A stretch of 35,461 nucleotides of DNA from Synechococcus sp. AG-679-A04 (lineage in GTDB: Bacteria > Cyanobacteriota > Cyanobacteriia > PCC-6307 > Cyanobiaceae), in assembly GCA_003210775.1 (NCBI GenBank), contig QCUI01000016.1, positions 1 to 35,461 on the forward strand. Direction: 5' to 3'. Made by a program: the position numbers and the translations under genes. Numbering within the stretch: position 1 is the first letter of the stretch; every line of letters begins with the position of its first letter. Under the pieces are notes generated by a model. That model did no database searches. It was not told where the DNA came from and saw nothing but the letters and a program-made list of their open reading frames with translations. Of this stretch, positions 601 to 18,313 are shown one piece after another.

Positions 601-1335
601 TTAAGCCTTCGAAATAGAAACGATGCGACCACCTTGGGCTTGGATGCTCCGCAGAGTTGCAGACATGGAGCTTTGGCTGACAACTGATTTCTGCATCACA
701 CGGCGATTAGCGCTGACCTGACGACGGGTCGTCCAAAAGATTGAGATTGCATTGGCGTTGCCTACGCTCTTGCGATCGACAATCGCAGGTGCATTTCCAG
801 TGGAGAGGCTGCTCAGCAGTTTTGATCCATTGCTGGCCGCGTCGTAGCCTGCGAAGCCCGCATCAACCGCAATTCCACGTGTGTAATTAATGGTTCTTCC
901 GCCACTAATTGATTCACTTGAGCGATTGTGGGGTACTTGGTCGATACCAAAGGCAGCCAGGTACTCTTCGCTATAGGTGTAGCTTGCAATTTCTGCCTCG
1001 TATCCTTCAGTGTTCATGCGGGTGACATGCTCCATCAGTTCTTTCTGATCATGAGGAGGTCTTCCCAGTAAATGTTTGAAATTGAGCTCTACAAATTGAT
1101 AGGGGCTCGTGTTTTCGAGGAAAAGTCTCTTGTAGGTATCAGATTGTGCAAGCGCTGTAACGAACCCCTGAACCGTAAGATCGCCATTCATAAACAAGGC
1201 TTCGAGAGACTTGTTGACGTCAAGCTCCATGAGGTGACGGTTGCCGAAAACCTGCTTGTAAATGCTTTGAATCACTTCATCAGCATGTCCCAGATCTGCA
1301 TTGGCCTGGGTCGCCAGTGTGGTGGTTTCCGTCAT
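601..1335 (-). CDS. cpeE: Phycoerythrin I rod linker CpeE-type
   Basis: A 244-residue phycobilisome rod linker. The PBS linker (Pfam PBS_linker_poly) domain covers about residues 18-145, with the signatures IYKQVFGNRHLME, FVELNFKHLLGRPP and the YLAAFG...VP end. The C-terminus (about 215-244) carries a CpcD-like capping segment, ending LRSIQAQGGRIVSISKA. A single linker domain plus a CpcD domain, short length, and position between mpeD and cpeS match cyanobacterial CpeE, which joins phycoerythrin I discs. The ATG is at 1335; an 85-bp gap with a strong hairpin separates it from the upstream mpeD. The exact linker name rests on synteny and length. Confidence 0.8.
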   Translation of the reverse strand: MTETTTLATQANADLGHADEVIQSIYKQVFGNRHLMELDVNKSLEALFMNGDLTVQGFVTALAQSDTYKRLFLENTSPYQFVELNFKHLLGRPPHDQKELMEHVTRMNTEGYEAEIASYTYSEEYLAAFGIDQVPHNRSSESISGGRTINYTRGIAVDAGFAGYDAASNGSKLLSSLSTGNAPAIVDRKSVGNANAISIFWTTRRQVSANRRVMQKSVVSQSSMSATLRSIQAQGGRIVSISKA

Positions 1336-1420: not shown

Positions 1421-3038
1421 TTACATCACTTCGGTGATGGACACGATTTTTCCACCTCTTGCGTGGATGTACTTCATCTGGCTGGACATGTCTTTGCCAG
1501 ACACCAAGTAGGTGCTGCCTGCGGTGCGTTGCCTTGTACGTGCAGCTTGAGCTGAAACCACAATCCGGAAGCGCTTTTTGGTGGGATCTGGTGCACCAGA
1601 TTGGGTGCCAGTTCTGTTGATTCTCGTTGTGGTGGAGGTCCATCCACCCGGAACCATTCCTGTTGCCACTGAAGTGACCAAGGAAGAACTGGTCAGAACT
1701 GTGTCGCTTGCAGCGAAACCTTCAGCCAACTTGAGATGACGGTTGAAGGCAACCTGTGAGCGGCCCTCTTCGGAGAGAATTCGTGCGAATGGCACGGTGT
1801 CTTCACCGAAAGTGCTTTGGTATTCCGCGCAGTCAACGTAACTGCAAATTTCCGCGTCGTAACCACCTTCAGCCAGAATTCGAGTGTGCTCACTGATTTC
1901 TGCTTGGGATTTTGGCGCACGTCCAAGGAAATGCTTGAAGTTCAGTTCGATGAAGCGATAGGGGGCATTGGTCTCGAAGAAACGCTTTTTGTATTCGGCG
2001 GAAAGGCCAATCGCCCGCACAAATTCGCGAGTGCTCAGATAGCCATCGATGAATTTGCTTTCTGCAGATACGGACCGTTCGAATTCCATGAGATGGGGGT
2101 TGCCCATCACCTGCTTGTATGAGGCCCGAATCAGTGCATTCAGTTGATCTGCACTATCGCCAGGGCAACGTTGGAACGTTTCTTGCTCCCTTTGCCCCAA
2201 CCCAAAGAACACGTAGGAGTCACCGCGCATCGGTGCGCTGTCGCCGCCGCTGGTGATTCCAGGAGCTTTGCTTGGAATCTGACCACGCGAGAATGCTGTG
2301 GAGGGGCGGACTCCTATGGCTTCGGAAGGACGACTGATTCGGGGGGCAATCCCTGCCGCCATGCTGGTTGTCAGTTCCAGCAAAGCTCTTTTGCAGTGCT
2401 GCCAGCATTGAGAACGCTGAGGTGGCCAGATCTGCAGGTGAGCTCCAAGCACGGGCGTAGGGAACAATGTCACTGCCGAACACCTCGAGGTATTCCGCCG
2501 AGTCGATGATGCTGTCGATCAGTGCAGCGTGGCCGCTTTCAGCCTGCAAGCTGATTTTTTGAGACACCTCAGCCTGAGAATGGGGCGCGCGACCCAGCAA
2601 ATGCTTGAAGTTCAGTTCGATTCCACGTTGTGGTGCAACCGCAGAAAAGAAACGAGACTTGTAGAAGCTTGACTGTGCCAGCCCTCGGATGAAGTTCCTA
2701 ACTGTGAGCCTGCCGTCTCTCAGTTGTGCTTCCAGTTCACTACAACGTTCAAAATCCATGACGTGCGCGTTGCCGAACACCTGTCGGTAACTGGCAGCAA
2801 TCACTTCATCCAGTGATGCCTGGTCGTCGGGGCTGTAGCACTCCGCTGTGACGCGGTGGGGACAATCCTCATGGCTGCGAGGACCCACACCGATCGCCAT
2901 CTGATCGCATGACTGTTTGAGGAATTCGCCAATAGTCAGTGCAGGCTTTTGAGCGTTTTGTCCTTTCCTCTGGAAGCTGACAGGGCTATTCCACTTGGTT
3001 TCAGCGCCGAATCCGTTCGAAGTTTGGTTGGTTGCCAT
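1421..3038 (-). pseudogene. mpeD: MpeD-type fusion phycoerythrin linker, frameshifted between its two linker domains
   Basis: The region encodes a linker made of an MpeC-like half fused to a CpeD-like half, the architecture known for MpeD of marine Synechococcus (about 548 residues). The N-terminal half starts at ATG 3038, has Cys-containing segments (QSCDQMAIGVGPRSHEDCP) like the bilinated gamma linkers, then a PBS linker domain (ASYRQVFGNAHVMD, GIELNFKHLLGRAP). The second half, in another frame, carries a complete linker domain (ASYKQVMGNPHLMEF, IELNFKHFLGRAP) and a C-terminal CpcD-like segment ending GGKIVSITEV. The span is 1618 nt, one base more than 539 codons. The reading frame must change between about 2400 and 2340; a run of six C (coding sense, 2341-2346) is the likely site. 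Either a real +1 lesion or a sequence error; removing one base restores a 538-residue protein. Confidence 0.8.
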
Positions 3039-3092: not shown

Positions 3093-4007
3093 TCAGGTCA
3101 CCGGAGTGATGCTTGCGATCTTTCCGCCTTCTCGGTGAATCCTTTTGAATTGCTCGGAAAGCTTGTCGAACGGAACGTAGAAGACCCGGTTACTGCGGGT
3201 ATAGCGAGAGATGCGCCGCAGATTGTTGGCGCTGTAGCCCGTGACTTCCACTCGGTAAGTCACTCCCTCCTCGCCAGCACCAGCACCCAGTCGGGTCGGT
3301 GCATCCTGCAAATTGGTTGAAGGGCGGAAACTCCAGCCTGTGGACTGAGTGGATGACGGAGGAACCACGGGAAGTGGCAGGTTCTGATAGGCCGCAGCAC
3401 CAAGCTTGCTGCGGTTGCCCGCCAGGTCACCCTTCAGGCTGCTGCTGCTGTTCCCACGCAACAACTGGAAGCTCCAGGTGAATTCCTGGAGAGTCGTGCA
3501 ACATTCAGTTTTCCAACCGCGTTGATAGGGAACGGTCCACTCACCGAATGCATTCTGGTAATCGTCTGAATCGAGAAAACTGTCGATATCTGCTTCATAC
3601 CCCTTGTTGTCTAGTCGCTCAGCATGGGTGCGCATTTCCTGGAAGTCTTCAGGAGCCCTTCCGAGAAAGTGGCGGAAGGCCAGCTCGATGTAGCGGTAGC
3701 GCGCACAGGTATCGAAAAAGCGCGTGCGATAAAGCTCGCTCTTGGCAATGCGTCGCACCAGCTCTCGCACGCTGATCTCACCGAGCTTGAACTGCGATTC
3801 AGCAATGATTTGGCGCTCGCTTTCCATGACGTAAGCGTTGCCAAGCACCTGCTGATACACCTTGCGGATGATCTGCTCCTTCTTGGCATCGTCGTCGCCA
3901 GGGAGCAGTTCGAGGGGTGCTTCACTCTCGTCCGAGAAGCGCTCGACCCCCAAAAGCGAGGCAGGACCGAAGGGCATGAAGGTTCTCGCGATATTCGCAG
4001 GCCCCAT
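3093..4007 (-). CDS. cpeC: Phycoerythrin I rod linker CpeC
   Basis: A 304-residue rod linker. PBS linker domain at about residues 40-165 (VYQQVLGNAYVMESER, YIELAFRHFLGRAPEDFQEM, DDYQNAFG..TVPYQRG), then LRGNSSSSLKGDLAGNRSKL, a segment conserved in CpeC proteins, and a C-terminal CpcD-like domain (YRVEVTGYS ... FKRIHREGGKIASITPV). This connects phycoerythrin I hexamers in rods. Many CpeC homologues begin MPFGPAS, which here is the internal ATG at 3977; the annotated ATG at 4007 would add ten residues and neither has a clear Shine-Dalgarno. It lies 54 bp upstream of mpeD and downstream of a pentapeptide-repeat gene, all on the minus strand. Confidence 0.85.
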   Translation of the reverse strand: MGPANIARTFMPFGPASLLGVERFSDESEAPLELLPGDDDAKKEQIIRKVYQQVLGNAYVMESERQIIAESQFKLGEISVRELVRRIAKSELYRTRFFDTCARYRYIELAFRHFLGRAPEDFQEMRTHAERLDNKGYEADIDSFLDSDDYQNAFGEWTVPYQRGWKTECCTTLQEFTWSFQLLRGNSSSSLKGDLAGNRSKLGAAAYQNLPLPVVPPSSTQSTGWSFRPSTNLQDAPTRLGAGAGEEGVTYRVEVTGYSANNLRRISRYTRSNRVFYVPFDKLSEQFKRIHREGGKIASITPVT

Positions 4008-5109: not shown

Positions 5110-6012
5110 TTATGCCCAGGTTTTTGCATTCTTAGACTGATACATGCGTTGGAATGCACCGCTGTAAGGATCTTTGACGGCCTTGGAGTAAACGAATCCA
5201 CTGACGTCGTATCCTGAGCCTGATTGAGAAATTCGGCGAGCGTTGCTGAATTCCATCACCAGTTGGCTGCGCCCTTCGATGGTTGTATCTGAAGCAGCGT
5301 TGGCAGGAGTGACTCTGGCCAGATTGGTGAATGTGGAGCAATAAGCACCAGCTGCCGAAGTCCAGGCGCGTGGATACGGAACAGTGTCTGTTCCAAACAC
5401 CTCCAGATACTCCCCAGAGTGGGTGATTTTGTAGATCAATGCATCAAATCCACCTTCTGCGATGAGCGTGATCGCTGCACTCACTTCAGCTTGATTAATG
5501 GGGGGTCTTCCAAGCAAATGCTTGTAGTTCAATTCGATGCCGCGAATCGGCGAAACACGATGGAAATACTTTTCTTTGTAGAGGTCAGACTTGGCGAGTC
5601 CTGCCACGAAATCCCTCACGCTGATTTCGCCGGTGCTGAGTTGCGACTCCAGCTCAGTGCAGCGCTGGTTACCCATGGGGCCGAGGTTGCCGAAAACCTG
5701 CTTGTAGCTTGCGGCGATCGCTGTCTCTAGGGCATCGCTTCCATTGGCTGCGTAAACCTCGTTGACACTGCTGAAAGGACATTCGCTGTGAACCCTTGGT
5801 CCGATGCCAATGCCCATGGAGGAACAAAGGTTTGCTTTGTATTCCTCAGGTGTTGAAGCAGCGCGGCCCTGGCGCGGAATCAAGTTGCCTTTTTCGCATT
5901 CCTGTCGGTAGAGATTGGTCGCCGTGTTGCGTCGTGTTTTGGTGGAGTTCCCTGCGGCGTAGGAGACGCGGTTCAGGTTCGTGAAATCACGTGTCGGCTT
6001 GATGGCGACCAT
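5110..6012 (-). CDS. Phycoerythrin II gamma-type rod linker (MpeC/MpeE family)
   Basis: A 300-residue linker from the ATG at 6012 (an in-frame TTG at 6024 is a weaker start). A basic N-terminal extension with cysteines at about positions 39, 63 and 78 (NLCSSMGIGIGPRVHSECPF) resembles the bilin-binding N-terminus of gamma subunits MpeC, MpeD and MpeE; these linkers carry phycourobilin. The PBS linker domain follows (ASYKQVFGNLGPMGNQR, GIELNYKHLLGRPP, YLEVFGTDTVPYPRAW). There is no obvious CpcD domain; the C-terminal tail ends in RMYQSKNAKTWA. The length of 300 matches published MpeE, while MpeC is a little shorter, but I cannot separate these paralogues from sequence alone. A terminator follows. 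Confidence 0.85.
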   Translation of the reverse strand: MVAIKPTRDFTNLNRVSYAAGNSTKTRRNTATNLYRQECEKGNLIPRQGRAASTPEEYKANLCSSMGIGIGPRVHSECPFSSVNEVYAANGSDALETAIAASYKQVFGNLGPMGNQRCTELESQLSTGEISVRDFVAGLAKSDLYKEKYFHRVSPIRGIELNYKHLLGRPPINQAEVSAAITLIAEGGFDALIYKITHSGEYLEVFGTDTVPYPRAWTSAAGAYCSTFTNLARVTPANAASDTTIEGRSQLVMEFSNARRISQSGSGYDVSGFVYSKAVKDPYSGAFQRMYQSKNAKTWA

Positions 6013-6210
6013 TACTGATCTCAAAGGGGTACTTGTGTCCAGACAATAATCGCGTTTTAGGGTGAACTCCCAAGAGCCATGAGGCTTGCAACAAAATGTT
6101 TTCTCGCGATTCTTTGATTTTCTTAATGGTCGACGATTGACTGCTTAATGATTCTTGATGGCTGCTTTTGTGGCTGATTGGTTGTCATCAAGTGACGCTG
6201 TTTGCAGGTT

Positions 6211-6324: not shown

Positions 6325-7047
6325 TTAGCGAGTGCCATACATTTCTCCGGCCACAATGAGAAGAACTCTGATGATTTCAAAGGTTCCAATGGCAGCCAAG
6401 CCAAGCCACGCCTTTTTAGCCCACTCAGGCGTTTTGATATAAGCAGGGACAAGAGTCTCGATTTCAATTCTGGCTTGTAGTTTCTGATCCCATTGCCGAT
6501 CTCTCCAGTCGCTTCCGTAGCGAGGAAATTGCTGGTAGATCGGCATCACTCCTGTTGAGGCACCTGGAATCACCCGTGATCGCTGACTTGGAACATCGTC
6601 ATAGCCAAACGAATCGAGATATTCGCTGCTATCGAGCACAGCGTCAACAAAGCTGCTAAAGCCCTTGTCTGCGATCAGGATTGACCAACTGATTCGTTCA
6701 CTTTGCCCATGTACTTCCCTCCCTAGAACGCGTCCAACGACCTGGTCGACCAGCCTGTAATTCGTGCTGCAGGACACATAGCCTTCTTGGAAGCGTCTTG
6801 ACAGCAACAATCCTCTTATGAAGTCTCTGGCTGTGATGCTTCCATCGCGGAACTGAGATTCAAGATTCACGTCACGATCGCATTTCATGGCGTGAAAGAA
6901 GATCTGGCGATAGGCCTGTTCGATCTGTGCGCTTCGATCTTCGCGGCTTGGGAATGTCGCGCGATTGAGCTCCGCCTTCAGGCCGCCCTGGTCGCCGACA
7001 CGATTATTTTGGCTGGTCAGCGGGTAGTCGAGCAGCTGAAGCGCCAT
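6325..7047 (-). CDS. cpcG2: Phycobilisome rod-core-type linker CpcG2 with C-terminal hydrophobic helix (CpcL-like)
   Basis: A 240-residue linker starting MALQLLDYPLTSQNNRV, the conserved CpcG N-terminus. The PBS linker domain spans about residues 35-160 (AYRQIFFHAMKCDRDVNLES, ITARDFIRGL, YRLVDQVVGRVLGREVHG, ISWSILIADKGF, EYLDSFGYDDVP). The C-terminus has a strongly hydrophobic segment at about 213-235 (AWLGLAAIGTFEIIRVLLIV). In freshwater cyanobacteria a helix at this position distinguishes CpcL (CpcG2), which anchors rods to the membrane and serves photosystem I, from CpcG1, which binds the allophycocyanin core. By analogy this linker may build membrane-bound, core-free rods. It lies next to aplA. 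Confidence 0.85.
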   Translation of the reverse strand: MALQLLDYPLTSQNNRVGDQGGLKAELNRATFPSREDRSAQIEQAYRQIFFHAMKCDRDVNLESQFRDGSITARDFIRGLLLSRRFQEGYVSCSTNYRLVDQVVGRVLGREVHGQSERISWSILIADKGFSSFVDAVLDSSEYLDSFGYDDVPSQRSRVIPGASTGVMPIYQQFPRYGSDWRDRQWDQKLQARIEIETLVPAYIKTPEWAKKAWLGLAAIGTFEIIRVLLIVAGEMYGTR

Positions 7048-9800: not shown

Positions 9801-10111
9801 GGCCTCTATTTTGTGCCTCCCTCTATTCAGTGGAAGGCACCTGCACGGAATTCTTTCCTCAATAGAAAGCTTGATGGCGGTGTGCAGGATGTTTAGTCTT
9901 ATTATCAGATCGTGTGGCTGGGCGCCGTCACAGAGAAGTGGAACTCCTCAGTGTAAGAAGTCTGTAGACAGAGAGCGATGACATAGATGCAATGTCAATC
10001 GATGTTGGCTGGCTAGGGATAGACGAGTTTGGTCTGAATCTTCTCTCAGGTATCGATCATTGCTTTAAGAGTCTCGCCTGTCTACCTTGTTCGAAGCAGG
10101 TTCCCACATCC
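9801..10111 (+). other. Gene-free stretch upstream of the TPR lipoprotein
   Basis: No convincing ORF, RNA or repeat seen. The frame of the TPR gene is open back to 9992, but the added residues (MSIDVGWLGIDEFG...) precede the lipoprotein signal peptide and are not expected to be translated. The promoter of the TPR gene probably lies here. Confidence 0.4.
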
Positions 10112-10738
10112 ATGTCTCGCAGGACGACTGCCATCGCTACAGCGCTGTGTGTGCTCGCAATTGGATCTCCATTGATAGCTGGTTGCGCGAACCCATTGGC
10201 GACGAAATCTTACAATAGTGGAATAGAAAAGTATGAACAAGGCGATTATCAAGGCGCAATTGCCAGTTTCACAAAGGCAATAGAAATTAATCCTCAAGAT
10301 GCCGATTATTATTACGGCCGTGGTGATTCTAAATTTGAATTAAAAGATTTTCAAGGAGCAGTAATTGATTACACTAAAGCGATAGAGATCAACCCGCAGT
10401 TTGCCTATTCCTACTCGAATCGTGGCGCCTCCAAGGATTACTTGGGTGATTATCAAGGGGCTATTTCTTATTTCACGGCGGCAATAGAAATCAATCCTCA
10501 AGTTGCCGATTTTTATTACAACCGCGGCAATGTCAAGGGGCAATTGAAAGATTATCAAGGAGCAATTGCCGACCTGGACACGGTAATAGAACTCAATCCG
10601 CAGTTTGCCGATGCCTATCTCACTCGTGGTAACGCGAAGGAATTTGTTAATGATCTTGCCGGTGCCTGTGCTGATTGGAAAAAAGCAGCAGATATGGGAA
10701 TTAAAGAGCCTGCTGAATGGGTGCAAAATCAGTGTTGA
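10112..10738 (+). CDS. TPR-repeat lipoprotein
   Basis: A 208-residue protein from ATG 10112, chosen because it places a lipoprotein signal peptide at the N-terminus: basic MSRRTT, hydrophobic core, then lipobox LIAGC at about residues 20-24. The mature part is five tandem tetratricopeptide repeats of about 34 residues, each containing the YQGAI...FTKAIEINPQ theme, ending in a cysteine. TPR lipoproteins act as protein-protein scaffolds at the outer or plasma membrane. The coding sequence is visibly AT-richer than neighbouring core genes (many AAT, GAA, ATT codons), suggesting acquisition. No operon partner; function unknown. Confidence 0.85.
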   Translation: MSRRTTAIATALCVLAIGSPLIAGCANPLATKSYNSGIEKYEQGDYQGAIASFTKAIEINPQDADYYYGRGDSKFELKDFQGAVIDYTKAIEINPQFAYSYSNRGASKDYLGDYQGAISYFTAAIEINPQVADFYYNRGNVKGQLKDYQGAIADLDTVIELNPQFADAYLTRGNAKEFVNDLAGACADWKKAADMGIKEPAEWVQNQC

Positions 10739-10911
10739 TTGGGGGCTCTGCAATCGCGTAATGAGGCTCTCCACCTTCCTCAAGACGTGGAGCACGCCTC
10801 AATGCAGGAAGTTTGTAAGTATCACGATTGACCAATCAATGATCAATATTGCCTCCGCTGCGTTGTGACTCTCCTGAGGCAGGTCTAAAGTCCTAGTTTA
10901 TTTTATCTGAA

Positions 10912-12345
10912 ATGAGTCTGAGGACTGCTGCTCGAGATGTCCTCAAGAAGGTGTTCGGCGAATCCTTCTATGGAGAGTTGAGGGATTTTTATCGCAATGC
11001 TCGGTACGGCGATAGAAGTAAGCCTGAAGGGCGGGTCTCGATGGACCTCAACCATGAGGCGCCTGAGCCTCAATGGAAGGAAGTTGGTGCCTCGACTTAC
11101 AAGTGGGTTCCACCGAGTCAGGCCCAGGAGGCATTGCCTGAGGTGGTGGAAGAACCACTGGTTGTCCCTGCGGATTCTGAGACCGACCTCAGCGAGGAGC
11201 AAAACCTTCCTCTGCTCTGTGAGAAGTTCCTGGTCCAAGACCGTTTTCTGATCGATTACGTCGACAAGTCAGGCAACGCCACCAGGAGGCCCATCCGTGT
11301 GGAGGAGGTTTATGCGTATGACGATGGTGTCTTTGTTCTTCGTGCCTGGTGCTTGCTGAGGAAGGGCTACAGGACGTTTGTCAGTACCCGGATCAAGGGT
11401 TGTAGCGATGCCTTCTCCAAGGAAATGGTTTTTGACTTGCTTTCCCGTCTGAGGAAACGGTCACTCTCAGATCCAGGCAACGTGGCCCAGGAAATTCTGG
11501 ATGGCATGGCGCTGGAAATCGTTATTTCCATCTACACGTTGATGCACTATTCAACGGGCAAGGGGTATGAGAAGCGGTTCGTTAGCGGGAAGAAGAAAAA
11601 TGCCTTGGTCGACTGGGTGTTGAAGCAGTCCAAGGCGGAATCCCTACTGGGTTCACTGGATGCCGATAAGCACAGCGAAATGGAGGAACTTGTGAGCGAA
11701 TCCATTGGAGACATCAAGGTCACCCAGAGCCGTTATGAATCCTGTGCTCGGGCGTTGAAGAGAACGCGATATGTCTTCTCTAACAATGATGGTTATGAAG
11801 TTAGGAGGCAGGACCTTATTCTTTTCGTCGAGAATGCGCTTGAGGGAGAAGCAGCGAGAGATACTGCCCTCACCCGCCTCAAACAGGACCTTCTGGATCC
11901 CTCCTTCCGTATTGGTAGAGAGGTCGACATCGACAAGTTCATGGAGGAGTTCGGCAAGGTCAAGAAGGATTCCAAAAAGGCAGAGAAGAAGTACAAACGC
12001 AAGAAAAAACCAGAGCTTGTTTCCAAGCAGTACCGGCGCTACGAGCGTGGTGAGCCTGTTCGTCTATTGGCGATTGAAGTGGCACAGCGGAACCTTCAGC
12101 AATGCCTTGACGATGACCGTTTGCTTTTTGGTAAAGACGAATTTGAAGAGTGCGTTGTGAGAGAGGTGGAACTTGCATTTACAGAAGAAGAGTTAAAGAA
12201 AGCGGGAGAGATGTTTCGTAAGCGTTGTGGAGCAGGCTTGAGCACTGCCTATTGCTCCTTCGGGCTACGCAAAGAAAAGCGCTCTTGGTTCACAGACTCA
12301 AGGGGCAAGTCCTGGTTGGATTTGAAGACAAGAATTGGTGCCTGA
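10912..12345 (+). CDS. WYL-like domain protein, 477 aa, no HTH
   Basis: Residues about 111-165 (RFLIDYVDKSGNATRRPIRV ... VLRAWCLLRKGYRTFVSTRI) follow the pattern of the WYL ligand-sensing fold: a strand with IDY, a vrP turn, and xLxAWCxLRxxYRTFxxxRI. WYL proteins usually regulate defence or DNA-damage genes and normally have an N-terminal HTH; here the N-terminus (1-100) is a short basic helix region followed by an acidic linker. The C-terminal 300 residues are helical and charged, with a Lys-rich block at about 353-366 (KKDSKKAEKKYKRKKK) and no motif I recognise. There is no Shine-Dalgarno at 10912; ATG 11041 is an alternative start. Isolated in the accessory region. Confidence 0.7.
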   Translation: MSLRTAARDVLKKVFGESFYGELRDFYRNARYGDRSKPEGRVSMDLNHEAPEPQWKEVGASTYKWVPPSQAQEALPEVVEEPLVVPADSETDLSEEQNLPLLCEKFLVQDRFLIDYVDKSGNATRRPIRVEEVYAYDDGVFVLRAWCLLRKGYRTFVSTRIKGCSDAFSKEMVFDLLSRLRKRSLSDPGNVAQEILDGMALEIVISIYTLMHYSTGKGYEKRFVSGKKKNALVDWVLKQSKAESLLGSLDADKHSEMEELVSESIGDIKVTQSRYESCARALKRTRYVFSNNDGYEVRRQDLILFVENALEGEAARDTALTRLKQDLLDPSFRIGREVDIDKFMEEFGKVKKDSKKAEKKYKRKKKPELVSKQYRRYERGEPVRLLAIEVAQRNLQQCLDDDRLLFGKDEFEECVVREVELAFTEEELKKAGEMFRKRCGAGLSTAYCSFGLRKEKRSWFTDSRGKSWLDLKTRIGA

Positions 12346-12580
12346 TGTAATCCGACCTTTGTGGTTTATTTGGCGTTCTTGCATGTGAGCCTGCTATTGG
12401 GTATTCAGGTTATGGGTCGCAAATGAAAGATTAAAGTAGGCGTTTGTATCTGCCGATGTCGGAGGCTCGGTGTCTTCTGTCTCTTTGAATGCCTTTCATG
12501 CGCCTATATTGTGCCTCCTGGATTGTCATGGGTTTCGTGCTAGTAGTCCATGCCAGTGTGTTTGTCGATCATCGAATAAT

Positions 12581-12823
12581 TCATTGCACTCCGCCCAGGC
12601 CGTTGCAAACCCTTGTCGCTGATTCTAAATGCATAGTCTCTCCGCGATTGGGCGCCTTCGCTCTTTCGGTCATGTTCCATTGAATGCACTGCACTCGGTA
12701 GTGAGCGTCTTTGGAGATGGGATCCATCTGGATTAGGAATATCGCTGCGCCTATCACTGCCAGGGTCTTAAATATCGGAATTTGAGGGAGCTTTCCAGTG
12801 ACGATGGCCATCTCCTTGCTCAT
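12581..12823 (-). CDS. Small membrane protein with C...CNG ending
   Basis: An 80-residue protein from ATG 12823 with AGGGATT upstream as a fair Shine-Dalgarno. It has one hydrophobic helix (IFKTLAVIGAAIFLIQM) near residues 17-33, then YRVQC and a C-terminal ATRVCNG. The plan (one N-terminal membrane helix, a cysteine, about 25 residues, then CNG near the end) matches the interrupted small protein at 9546-9800. The two cysteines could form a disulfide outside the cytoplasm. Function unknown. The flanking stretch 12346-12580 holds nothing I can support. Confidence 0.55.
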   Translation of the reverse strand: MSKEMAIVTGKLPQIPIFKTLAVIGAAIFLIQMDPISKDAHYRVQCIQWNMTERAKAPNRGETMHLESATRVCNGLGGVQ

Positions 12824-12891
12824 GACGGTAATCCCTATTGAATAGCAGTCACAGAGTACACACCAGCACTATTGATGTAAGTTAAATCCGA

Positions 12892-13119
12892 ATGAGGTCG
12901 ATGGATTTACTGCAACGAGTGAAGGTTGTTGTTGGTGGTGGGTTGATTCTTGCTGCCTATTTCATCGCATTGCATCTTGATGTTGTGACTGGGATCATCG
13001 TTCACTTAACTGCAGTGACTATTTCGGTGCCCAATTGCAGCAGCGATATGACAAGCCAGGCTGATCAGGCTAGGGAGTGTGATTCAACACTATTGCCTGA
13101 TACGTTTTTGTTTGTTTAG
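12892..13119 (+). CDS. Short membrane ORF, possible gene remnant
   Basis: 75 residues from ATG 12892 (or ATG 12901). Residues 4-45 read as a membrane protein (LLQRVKVVVGGGLILAAYFI, then a second hydrophobic strand), which looks like the start of small two-helix proteins I recall from marine picocyanobacteria; the tail after ISVP is polar and unlike them. It may be a truncated copy. Low certainty. Confidence 0.35.
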   Translation: MRSMDLLQRVKVVVGGGLILAAYFIALHLDVVTGIIVHLTAVTISVPNCSSDMTSQADQARECDSTLLPDTFLFV

Positions 13120-13207
13120 GTTGCTTCGAATTCTCAAGTTTTGCGACCTTGTGTAGCCACTCAATGACTTTCCTCGCTACATCACGGCTGATTCCACTTT
13201 CATTCTT

Positions 13208-13387
13208 TTAGTTCTTCGGTAGAGGCTGTGGAGGGATGTTCAGCCTGATTCCCTTGGTTTTAATGTCTTTCCCCGCTGGATGTAGGTAGTCAGCAGTTGC
13301 TCTCAGCACCTGTGCGGTGATGCGTCTTGCGTCAGGGTTGCTCCACAGCAGGATTCCAGCCCCAACGCCAATAAGTAGTTTCAGCAC
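13208..13387 (-). CDS. 59-residue hypothetical protein
   Basis: From GTG 13387 with GAGGTGG just upstream as ribosome-binding site, encoding VLKLLIGVGAGILLWSNPDA, then RRITAQVLRATADYLHPAGK and a Pro-rich end (RLNIPPQPLPKN). The N-terminal glycine-rich hydrophobic helix followed by an amphipathic helix is typical of small single-helix membrane proteins of picocyanobacteria and their phages. No function known. The good ribosome-binding site and protein-like composition support it despite its size. Confidence 0.55.
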   Translation of the reverse strand: MLKLLIGVGAGILLWSNPDARRITAQVLRATADYLHPAGKDIKTKGIRLNIPPQPLPKN

Positions 13388-13722
13388 TTGACCACCTCTT
13401 GCTCCTTGATGATGCGGGTCATGGGTGCGAGTGCCAGTCCTGTCTTCTTTGATCGGCCTTTAGGACATGCCTTTTCAGTTCGCACGATGGGCCAGTGCGC
13501 CCTGCTTGGGTGATCAAAGGGATGGGCCAAGGAGATTGTGGAAGGTGCTTTTGAGGAATGGATGGCAGAACTTTCTGTTGTTTGATGATCTGAGCTTGAA
13601 CCTTAGAAGCTGCTGGGAAAGCGTTTCTTGTTTTCTATTGCCTTCTCGGTTGGGTTTGTTTAGAAAGCAGTTAGACCCGAGGAACACCTGCCCTTCTGGA
13701 GAGGACAGAGTTCTCATGGGTA

Positions 13723-13750
13723 GGAAGGGGGGCAGAAATGCCCCCCTTCC
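13723..13750 (+). terminator. G/C-rich 12-bp hairpin
   Basis: Perfect stem GGAAGGGGGGCA with its complement around a GAAA tetraloop, followed by TTTATGG on the plus strand. Stable enough to terminate transcription although the T-run is short; no gene with a matching end is evident upstream. Confidence 0.5.
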
Positions 13751-13834
13751 TTTATGGGGAGTTGATGCTGTCCGGCAGCCTTTCAGCACAAATGCCTGAC
13801 GCGTGGACTGAGGCAGGAAATATCGCATGGGAGC

Positions 13835-13870
13835 AAAGACCAGGGAGGCCAAACAGTCCCTGGTCTTTTA
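13835..13870 (+). terminator. Rho-independent-type terminator
   Basis: Perfect 12-bp stem AAAGACCAGGGA (13835-13846) and complement (13857-13868) with a 10-nt loop, running into TTTTA on the plus strand. The upstream transcript is unidentified, which suggests a small RNA or a decayed gene. Confidence 0.55.
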
Positions 13871-14313
13871 GGGAAAATGCGCACTGCATTCATGGAACCA
13901 CCAGCGCATCGTTGCTGGACGTTGTGCTTGGTGTCGTTTCTCCGGGCGACATGTTCAGTGCTTTTTTGGGAAAGGGATAGCGTCCTCCCTTTTCGTGCTC
14001 TGTGGATGACTGAAGCAGTTGTTGTCTCTAGGGTTTTGCTGTGAGAGGGAGACCAAGCGGGCGTGGTTGCTTGTTTTGGTGGGTGGGGTCACGCTCACTG
14101 CCTCTTTCACACCTCTTTGGCTGAGAACCGCACCAACAACGAAGCTCGAAACTGGTTCCGATGGTTCTCTTGCTCCTCACGATCCGAGCGTCAGCAGGAA
14201 TTGGACGGTGCGTCATTTGAGAGACAACCAGGCCTCTGGTTTCCCGGCATGTGACACCAAGGAGTCTTTTGTGTCCTGAAGAACCATTTCTCAAAATTGT
14301 GCCTTTGACGACG

Positions 14314-15667: not shown

Positions 15668-15832
15668 TCAGCTAAAGCGCTGCCAGAGCAGCAGGGCCAG
15701 TCGAAAACCGCTGTACCCCACGTATCCGGCCAACACGACGAACAACCCGATGGCGAGCGCGTCACGGAGTTTGTTTGCCAAAGGCTCATGGAAGCTCCGT
15801 CGATTCTCTCCCGGAATGGCTGATTTAGTCAT
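15668..15832 (-). CDS. Small membrane protein (54 aa)
   Basis: Starts at ATG 15832, overlapping the end of the upstream sugar kinase gene, so probably translationally coupled to it. The first 20 residues are polar (MTKSAIPGENRRSFHEPLAN); one membrane helix follows (DALAIGLFVVLAGYVGYSGF), then LALLLWQRFS. No assigned function. The frame is open to 15910 but that part overlaps the kinase and is unlikely to be used. Confidence 0.65.
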   Translation of the reverse strand: MTKSAIPGENRRSFHEPLANKLRDALAIGLFVVLAGYVGYSGFRLALLLWQRFS

Positions 15833-17073
15833 GCTGCTGTTGCAGAGCGCTGAGTGCGAGTCGCGCCACCCCCGCAGCAGGAGGGCTGTAACAACTGCGG
15901 ATCGGAACACCGATCAACCGTTGCCTCAAGCGTCGCCACTGGGGGTTTCTGGCGCCCCCCCCCCAGGGTCACTAGTCGTTTTGGAGCGGGTGCTCCGAGG
16001 TCAGTGAGCTTGGTCCAGCCCTGGCATTCAATCCGGCTCAGTCCTTCCAAAAGACCATGCAGATACAGCGCATCACTCACCGGTCGTGGAGTCAGTATTG
16101 GTGCAAGATCGGGGTCATCCACGGGAAAGCGCTCTCCTTGGCCGATCAGAGGCAGCAGCTTCAGTCCACTCTCTTGATTAGGGTCGATCTGTCGGCTCAG
16201 TTCATTGAGGTCGATTCCTGGAAAGCACTGGCGCAGCACTGCACCGCCGCTGTTGGACGCTCCCCCTGCAAGCCAGCGACCGCCGACTCGGTGAGTGGAC
16301 GTCCCTGCACCATTCCGTAAAGGGATGGTGGTGAAGCGTTTGAGCACCAGAGTGCTTCCCAGCACGGTGATGCCTTCATCGTCGGCGGCATCGGCGGTGA
16401 GGACTGCCGCATTGGCATCGGTTGTGCCTGCGATCACGAGCATGTCCTTCGACAGTCCCAACTGGTTGGCTCGGCCACTATTGATGTTTCCGAGCCTTGA
16501 GCCGCTCGGTCGGATCTCCGGCAGTGCCTCAAGCCAGAGCTGTTGCTTAAAGGCATCAGGCCATCGCTGATTGGTCAGTGACCAGCCCAGGCGAAGGTTG
16601 TTGCCTTCCTCTCCAAACCTCCAGTCTCCAAGCAGCCAGCCGCTGATCCAGTCAGCCTGGTGACGAAGGATCAGTGGCTGCGAGTGTTGTTGCAAGAGCC
16701 TCAGCGCGCGGGCCAGGCTGCCACTGGCGCTCGATGCCGGCTGGCCTGCTTGCACCAGCTCACGCACCCGAGCCAGCTGTTCCGGACAGGCAACGTTGTA
16801 GGGCAAAGCCTTTCCCTGGGGGGTGCCTTGTTGATCACAGGCCAACAGTGTCCCTGAGGTTCCATCAACAGCCAGTGCCATGAGCTGGCTGCGAAGTTCC
16901 TGTGGGATGGCCTTGATCAGCTGGATGCAGTTTTTCAGCCAATCATCCGGATAGGCCAGACCTCGGTCGTACTCGGTGGAATCCGTGTACAGCAGCTCAC
17001 GCTGTTCATTGAGGACCGCAACTCGCACTCCACTGGTGCCCAGATCGATTCCGAGCGCCAGTGAATCCTGCAT
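15829..17073 (-). CDS. FGGY family sugar kinase (D-ribulokinase-like), C-terminus frameshifted at a G10 tract
   Basis: From ATG 17073, 7 bp past the metK stop. N-terminal LALGIDLGTSGVRVAVLNEQ is the ASKHA/FGGY phosphate motif; LAVDGTSGTLLACD, AGTTDANAA and a glycine-rich GGASNSGGAVLRQ follow. The short two-domain form resembles cyanobacterial/plastid kinases shown to phosphorylate D-ribulose (AtXK-1 type). Up to LVTLGGG the sequence is normal, then it turns into RQKPPVATLEA... In the neighbouring frame the expected FGGY ending appears (GGGARNPQWRRLRQR ... GVARLALSAL), stopping at 15825. The switch falls in a run of ten G on the coding strand (15955-15964); nine would restore a 415-residue protein. 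Confidence 0.8.
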   Translation of the reverse strand: MQDSLALGIDLGTSGVRVAVLNEQRELLYTDSTEYDRGLAYPDDWLKNCIQLIKAIPQELRSQLMALAVDGTSGTLLACDQQGTPQGKALPYNVACPEQLARVRELVQAGQPASSASGSLARALRLLQQHSQPLILRHQADWISGWLLGDWRFGEEGNNLRLGWSLTNQRWPDAFKQQLWLEALPEIRPSGSRLGNINSGRANQLGLSKDMLVIAGTTDANAAVLTADAADDEGITVLGSTLVLKRFTTIPLRNGAGTSTHRVGGRWLAGGASNSGGAVLRQCFPGIDLNELSRQIDPNQESGLKLLPLIGQGERFPVDDPDLAPILTPRPVSDALYLHGLLEGLSRIECQGWTKLTDLGAPAPKRLVTLGGGRQKPPVATLEATVDRCSDPQLLQPSCCGGGATRTQRSATAA

Positions 17074-17080
17074 CAACTGA

Positions 17081-18313
17081 TCAGGCGTTGCGCAGTTCTG
17101 CCGCCTTGGCATCAACGTCTTCCCAGGGAGCCTTCAGGTCGTTGCGGCCGAAGTGTCCGTAAGCCGCGGTGTCCTGGTAGAAGCGACCACCGCGTTGCTG
17201 CGGCAAATTGCGCAGTCCGAAGCTTTCGATGATGGCTCCGGGTCTCAGGTCAAAATGCTTCTGCACCAAGCCTGTCAGTGCATCATTGTCAAACTTGCTT
17301 GTTCCGAAGGATTCGACCAAAATCGAGACTGGCGTGGCAACGCCGATGGCATAGCTCAGCTGCACCTCGGCCCTTTCAGCCAGACCAGCTGCCACAAGGC
17401 ATTTCGCTACGTAACGCGCCGCATAGGCTGCCGAGCGGTCCACTTTGGTGGGGTCTTTTCCTGAGAAGGCGCCACCGCCATGCCGGGCATAACCCCCGTA
17501 GGTATCCACAATAATCTTGCGACCGGTCAGCCCGGCATCACCCTGGGGTCCGCCCACAACAAACTTTCCGGTCGGGTTGACGAGATATTTGGTCTCTTCG
17601 CGACTGGGTTTCAGAGCCAGATCGGCAGTTGCCGGCTCAACGACGTGGGTCCAGAGGTCCTCTGTGATCCGCTCGCGGATACCCTGCTCGTCACTGATTC
17701 CTCCCACCTCAGCGGTGTGCTGGGTTGAAATCAGAATCGTGTCGATCGCAACCGGCTTGTTGTTGTCATAAACCACACTCACCTGTGTTTTGCCGTCCGG
17801 AAGGAGGTAATCGAGCGTGCCGTTGTGACGTACTTCCGCCAACCTTCTTGCGAGGCGGTGGGCCAGGCTGATGGGCAAAGGCATCAGCTCGGGTGTCTCG
17901 TCGCATGCATATCCGAACATGATCCCTTGATCCCCGGCGCCAACCAAATCCAGGGGATCACCGGCGTGGTCGTCGGCTTCATTGACACCCTGAGCGATGT
18001 CGGGCGACTGCTGGTCGAGGGCGACCAAGACCGCACAGCTGTTGGCATCAAAGCCACCGGCGCGGGCTCCGCTGTAGCCGATCTCCTTGATCACGTTGCG
18101 AACAAGGTGGATGAAGTCCACTTGCGCTTTGGATGTCACTTCGCCTGTGATCATGCATAGGCCAGTGTTCACAACTGTTTCGCAGGCCACACGGCTGGTG
18201 GGATCCTGCGCCAGAAGGGCATCGAGTACGGCATCACTGACCTGATCGCAGATCTTGTCTGGATGCCCCTCCGTGACTGATTCGGAGGTAAAGACGTAAC
18301 GACTCATAGCCAT
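17081..18313 (-). CDS. metK: S-adenosylmethionine synthetase
   Basis: A 410-residue enzyme making S-adenosylmethionine from ATP and methionine. Signatures: [20 protein letters not shown] at the N-terminus, [12 protein letters not shown] at about 128-139 and [16 protein letters not shown] near 270, all intact. ATG 18313 gives [11 protein letters not shown]; the second ATG (18307) gives the more usual MSRYVF start. It lies between the HAD phosphatase and the sugar kinase, same strand, with short gaps, consistent with one transcript. No SAM riboswitch is visible in the 34-bp leader. Confidence 0.97.

Follow-up and report, generated by a model that had tools for sequence, protein, structure and literature searches.

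A 29-bp deletion between the two linker domains of mpeD, and a decayed mpeY-type lyase gene, in the assembly of Synechococcus sp. AG-679-A04

In the 35,461-base stretch of DNA analysed here (the window; bases 1-35,461 of contig C16, which by size order is probably the entire contig), the two halves of an mpeD-type gene lie in different reading frames, raising the question of whether the gene was broken in the cell or by the assembly, or still works as two. MpeD is known as the chimeric PEI/PEII rod linker of marine Synechococcus, and the accessible part of its description assigns PUB binding to two cysteines in the 43-59 region (PMC2246261). The gene in the window shares with that linker, as far as the same text describes it, the order of a PEII-type and then a CpeD-like domain and the place among the rod linker genes (PMC2246261). 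Its N-terminal PBS linker domain is MpeC-like, its C-terminal CpeD-like linker carries a CpcD domain, and the two-Cys region is kept: residues 44 and 59 of the translated sequence are cysteines, predicted to bind PUB. It differs in lacking 29 bp between the halves and hence a single reading frame, whereas relatives encode the intact 548-aa form (1647 bp in G009, the closest intact relative).

The assembly (2.28 Mb in 107 contigs, completeness 73.87%, contamination 0.35%) resembles a single-cell genome. In the first 7 kb of the window the minus strand carries a series of phycobilisome linker genes, whose linker domains Pfam confirms; the individual names come from gene order and the accessible part of PMC2246261, NCBIfam models matching only below their cut-offs. 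The coordinates are collected in Table 1. The mpeD gene sits 1.4-3 kb from the contig start, beside an assembly gap, and arithmetic from the alignments places the start of contig C40, the window's neighbour in G009 order, about 2.4 kb away. Elsewhere in the window, some 4.5 kb (about 9811-14283) have no DNA match in the collinear G009 stretch and may represent a variable island or an insertion that separates the rod region from the next conserved genes.

Table 1. Positions of the mpeD features, the neighbouring linker genes and the mpeY-type pseudogene. Positions refer to the window unless a contig of the own genome (G000) is named.
Feature	Position	Strand	Remarks
CpeE-type linker	601-1335	-	Intact, downstream of mpeD; 95% to G009; ORF list and Pfam
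mpeD	1421-3038	-	Frame-broken two-domain linker gene
3' part of mpeD, CpeD-like half	1421-2373	-	PBS_linker_poly and CpcD domains; open, in the other frame; ORF list, Pfam, codon alignment
5' part of mpeD, MpeC-like half	2220-3038	-	221 native codons (3038-2376), then 51 out-of-frame codons and TGA at 2222-2220; ORF list, Pfam, codon alignment
ATG in the frame of the CpeD-like half	2230-2228	-	5 nt upstream of the new TGA; possible re-initiation site, 269-aa product
C6 run (coding sense)	2341-2346	-	G009 and G025 have a run of equal length, in frame; codon alignment
29-bp deletion junction	2375/2374	-	Left flank GGAA, right flank CTGACAA; missing bases between 2375 and 2374; alignments
CpeC-type linker	3093-4007	-	Intact neighbour; 98% to G009; ORF list and Pfam
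MpeC-type (gamma) linker	5110-6024	-	Intact neighbour; 99% to G009; ORF list and Pfam
Further PBS linker	6325-7047	-	Pfam linker domain
Decayed mpeY-type bilin lyase gene (L197)	G000 contig C40 1-1020		Beside PEII subunit genes; nonsense codon, two 1-nt deletions, lost stop codon

Our analysis bears out what a sequence-only reading had noticed, namely that an mpeD-type fusion linker is split by a change of frame between its halves and that its length exceeds a multiple of three by one base. The gene spans 1618 bases, and the MpeC-like half stays open for 272 aa; a full PBS_linker_poly domain (PF00427) is found in the first half at residues 72-196 (E 5.4e-47) and another in the second (E 3.4e-45), where it is joined by a CpcD domain (PF01383, E 2e-09), so that both linker domains are whole but in different frames. 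The first half is 96% identical to G009 over residues 1-228 and 51% to the MpeC-type neighbour. Codon alignment with five other genomes of the genus shows 29 bases to be missing from the window after gene position 664. The same alignment moves the break away from where it had been sought: homology of the N-terminal half had been followed to about GTDNQHGGR, of which TDNQHGGR is already in the wrong frame, and slippage or a sequencing error had been suspected at a C6 run that in fact lies about 30 nt downstream of the break. This proximity is what speaks for a homopolymer error, an explanation that we reject as having next to no probability, because the run reads GCC CCC CGA in the window and GCC CCC CGC at the same codons of G009 and G025, where the frame is unbroken, and because the alignment demands a 29-base gap upstream and not one base at the run. 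The proposal that reads with five C here would expose an assembly error likewise does not apply, since six C is the in-frame state of G009. The 29-bp deletion is present in the assembly, and its size and place are established.

The comparison with related mpeD genes that the sequence-only reading had called for shows the gap to be peculiar to the window, against 14 of 14 aligned related loci; the comparison genomes include none of the same species. Some match to mpeD occurs in all 31 genus genomes, the own one included. Nineteen of the other 30 align from end to end of the gene: the span is 1645-1647 bp in 18 of them and 1601 bp in one, which is cut at a contig end. The remaining 11 match in part and stand outside the frame count. 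Among 57 related loci collected, 56 could be judged (L067 was dropped for want of a first half upstream), and 53 of these hold both halves in one frame, a count that includes L068, which has an internal stop and a first-half match far upstream. A programmed frameshift as a family feature is therefore rejected. The halves lie in different frames at L063, L069 and L043; in the first two, over 1 kb separates the second half from the first-half match upstream, which so probably belongs to another linker gene. L043 (3001-3905), on an N-containing contig of a metagenome-assembled genome, apparently carries an independent frame change in mpeD. With up to two mismatches allowed, a scan of 400 genomes of the family, themselves a subset of a larger group, detected the deletion junction in the own genome only, and the exact junction was found in none of the viral contigs of a collection where few matches are expected. 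A second, intact mpeD copy was sought in the own genome and none was found, in an assembly that is 74% complete.

The deletion falls in the tether between the linker domains, placed at residues 194-297 by pLDDT values below 50 in an AlphaFold prediction for intact MpeD of G009; that model (25-sequence alignment, mean pLDDT 56.8, pTM 0.33) is of low overall confidence and was used solely for domain limits, to place the deletion between domains. Among the MpeD proteins of 525-565 aa obtained from 38 of 45 loci (31 distinct sequences), domain 1 matches G009 at an identity of 0.83, domain 2 at 0.91 and residues 232-275 at 0.63. The ten deleted residues average 0.89, and the lost piece is thus not a freely variable stretch. 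In intact relatives TGACA occurs twice next to the break, 29 bases apart, within the near-repeats AGTGACA ... ACTGACA. An exact repeat of at least 5 bp within 2 bp of the break would accompany 31 of the 1557 possible 29-bp deletions in the gene, and the strict microhomology at the junction is 1 bp. The near-repeat is consistent with replication slippage, without proving it.

In a small sample that gives no genome-wide rate, 84 G009 ORFs were set against the window and 20 further own stretches of 20 kb, and 8 were flagged for a frame break; two of the eight are clear mid-gene breaks, in mpeD and in an FGGY-family carbohydrate kinase gene. Four others shift within their first 17-55 nt, and we take them for antisense ORFs or differences of start; one region has stop codons in every own frame and is taken to be intergenic, and one ORF is poorly conserved. 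In the reverse comparison with G009, 11 of 87 own ORFs were flagged; mpeD and the kinase gene recur among them, and at least two others show a one-base shift at 83-119 nt. The kinase gene (15789-17115, minus strand) has G10 in coding sense at 15955-15964, where G009 has G9 and where the run is interrupted in G017 and in the L015 genome; the resulting +1 shift near its 3' end may reflect a real slip or an error in the homopolymer.

The neighbouring contig C40 carries, next to PEII subunit genes of the same rod region, a decayed mpeY-type lyase gene. Its intact counterpart is a 398-aa CpeY/MpeY-family lyase (G009:C1:477941-479137; 184 bits with the NCBIfam CpeY model, whose cut-off is 600). The own copy, whose first 175 bases lie beyond the contig end, has TGA in place of CGA as its nonsense codon; the two phycobilisome subunit genes that it adjoins are assigned to PEII by place. 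Its branch carries 18 nonsynonymous and 12 synonymous changes (N / S), against 21 N / 46 S on the G009 branch (Fisher p 0.013). Judged by this pattern, which a single sequencing slip cannot explain, the gene is truly decayed. Decay does not appear to extend to other phycoerythrin genes: 23 of the 28 G009 ORFs next to the phycoerythrin region match C40 and 5 fall in the gap, and among the 23 the mpeY-type gene is the sole broken one, besides an ORF antisense to the PEII subunit genes that gives two overlapping pieces.

An intact mpeZ-type paralogue is present on contig C34 of the own genome. In G009 its counterpart stands beside two AraC-type helix-turn-helix genes, one just below the Pfam cut-off, which by place are fciA and fciB. 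Between the mpeZ-type lyase and the next gene no such regulators are found in the own genome, G017, G014, G008 or G028, nor does any of these five contain an fciA/fciB-type match elsewhere at E 1e-15, a search in which 13 of 31 genus genomes match; in the own genome, 74% complete, the sequence is continuous from mpeZ to unk10 and contains neither. An mpeY-type match is likewise lacking in G017, G014, G008 and G028, and G016 has the same lyase and regulator counts as these four, from counts alone. In two other genus genomes, matches of the fciA/fciB type hold one TGA and one TAG (G006:C1:1246575-1247603) or consist of fragments with several stops (G021:C1:2255492-2256164), and are possibly relics of decayed CA4 islands.

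These gene contents recall BIOS-E4-1, a blue-light-locked natural mutant said, in the accessible parts of two papers, to have lost fciA, fciB and mpeY (PMC9705338, PMC3877281), even though the text of the 2013 paper, where accessible, still puts mpeY in all PEII strains (PMC3877281). The own genome shows the combination of this genotype, mpeZ kept, mpeY lost and fciAB apparently lost, and shares with BIOS-E4-1, as those sources describe it, the retention of mpeZ-type and unk10-type genes, fciA/fciB not found and the loss of mpeY function (PMC3877281, PMC9705338). It differs in that its mpeY is still readable as a pseudogene; judged by its genes, the genome looks like an intermediate toward the BIOS-E4-1-like blue-light-locked type, whose cells would show a high, fixed PUB:PEB fluorescence ratio. 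The mpeD deletion is additional to that pattern, and goes unmentioned for BIOS-E4-1 in the accessible text of both papers (PMC3877281, PMC9705338). G017, G008 and G028 keep the gene in frame, as does G014 (L015) up to the point where its contig ends, from which we conclude that the deletion is not part of the genotype change. A literature search with subscription journals mostly outside its reach yielded no title on a broken mpeD.

We suggest, with a probability of roughly 60%, that the window records a recent, real 29-bp deletion of the tether in the cell's own genome, most likely by replication slippage, which puts the CpeD-like half out of frame. Its presence in the cell, the mechanism and the effect on the rod are what we infer. 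Counted in its favour are the junction's occurrence in the own genome only, the gap against all aligned relatives together with the lack of a second mpeD, the position in the low-pLDDT tether, and the repeat at the break. The sequence-only reading had named sequencing error as the simple alternative; shorn of its C6 version, an artefact stands as a serious one, though the less probable. The cell would then have an intact mpeD, and the deletion would have arisen in whole-genome amplification or in the assembly of a low-coverage stretch near the contig end. That the assembly is fragmented and incomplete fits this, as does the place of mpeD beside a gap, where coverage may be poor; so do the good conservation of the ten lost codons, the single base of strict microhomology, the intact frame in compared relatives of the same lyase genotype and the second, homopolymer break in the kinase gene, should that be an error. 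A chimera arising in a single molecule, however, is normally outvoted by the remaining reads. Short direct deletions are moreover a minor class of chimera in multiple displacement amplification (MDA), 11 of 475 having joined segments in direct orientation within 10 kb in the accessible part of one study, where deletions as small as 29 bp may have gone unscored (PMC1855051). It is this kind of lesion, rare among MDA chimeras, together with the real decay of the mpeY-type gene next door, that favours a real mutation, which we weigh against an artefact at about two to one.

The pattern of substitution also speaks to this choice, for both halves still look constrained, as an intact gene in the cell would. 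On the window branch mpeD has changed by 0 N / 9 S over codons 1-221, 2 N / 1 S over 233-262 and 4 N / 8 S over 263-548, against 9 / 25, 4 / 5 and 2 / 27 in G009 plus G017 (Fisher p 0.17 for codons 1-221 and 0.050 for 263-548); the 4 amino-acid changes among 12 in the second half fall below random expectation (binomial p 0.002, with an unweighted expectation and over the codons at 2230-1421 only). By these counts mpeD appears to show little ageing, with no clear sign of it. Constraint on the second half would also suit a functional split, in which two single-domain linkers are made by stop-start re-initiation at the ATG just ahead of the new TGA, or a trace of fused product by +1 slippage in the C6 run. 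CCC-C is a slippery sequence, and a +1 step at CCC C CGA would reach the second frame; both domains are whole and open, and the product predicted from the ATG retains the complete second linker domain and the CpcD domain. We nevertheless consider such a split very improbable: no Shine-Dalgarno sequence is seen upstream of the ATG, the constraint may predate a recent deletion, the second half has more amino-acid changes than in G009 plus G017, and no compared relative was seen with a split mpeD. The MRGD motif at the ATG occurs in 26 of the 31 distinct intact proteins.

Returning to a real and recent deletion, we envisage that slippage between the two near-repeats removed the 29 bp and put the CpeD-like half out of frame. 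Translation would then yield an MpeC-like protein that retains linker domain 1 and the two-Cys region and runs on through foreign residues to the new TGA. The chimeric protein, the presumed connector of PEI and PEII discs, would be lost, unless the second half were made separately by re-initiation. Internal initiation at the ATG may produce a split linker; the plain reading is that the bridging linker is lost. It is a long shot that in a wild Synechococcus lineage with a decaying chromatic acclimation system MpeD has become two linkers of one domain each, translated separately, with rods that do without a covalent PEI-PEII bridge. Firmer than the case for mpeD is that of a genome with a decayed yet readable mpeY beside its PEII subunit genes, an mpeZ and no fciA/fciB match. 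If the mpeD deletion is real as well, this cell would carry a natural mutation in the linker that is believed to bridge both phycoerythrins, and would test the need for that bridge.
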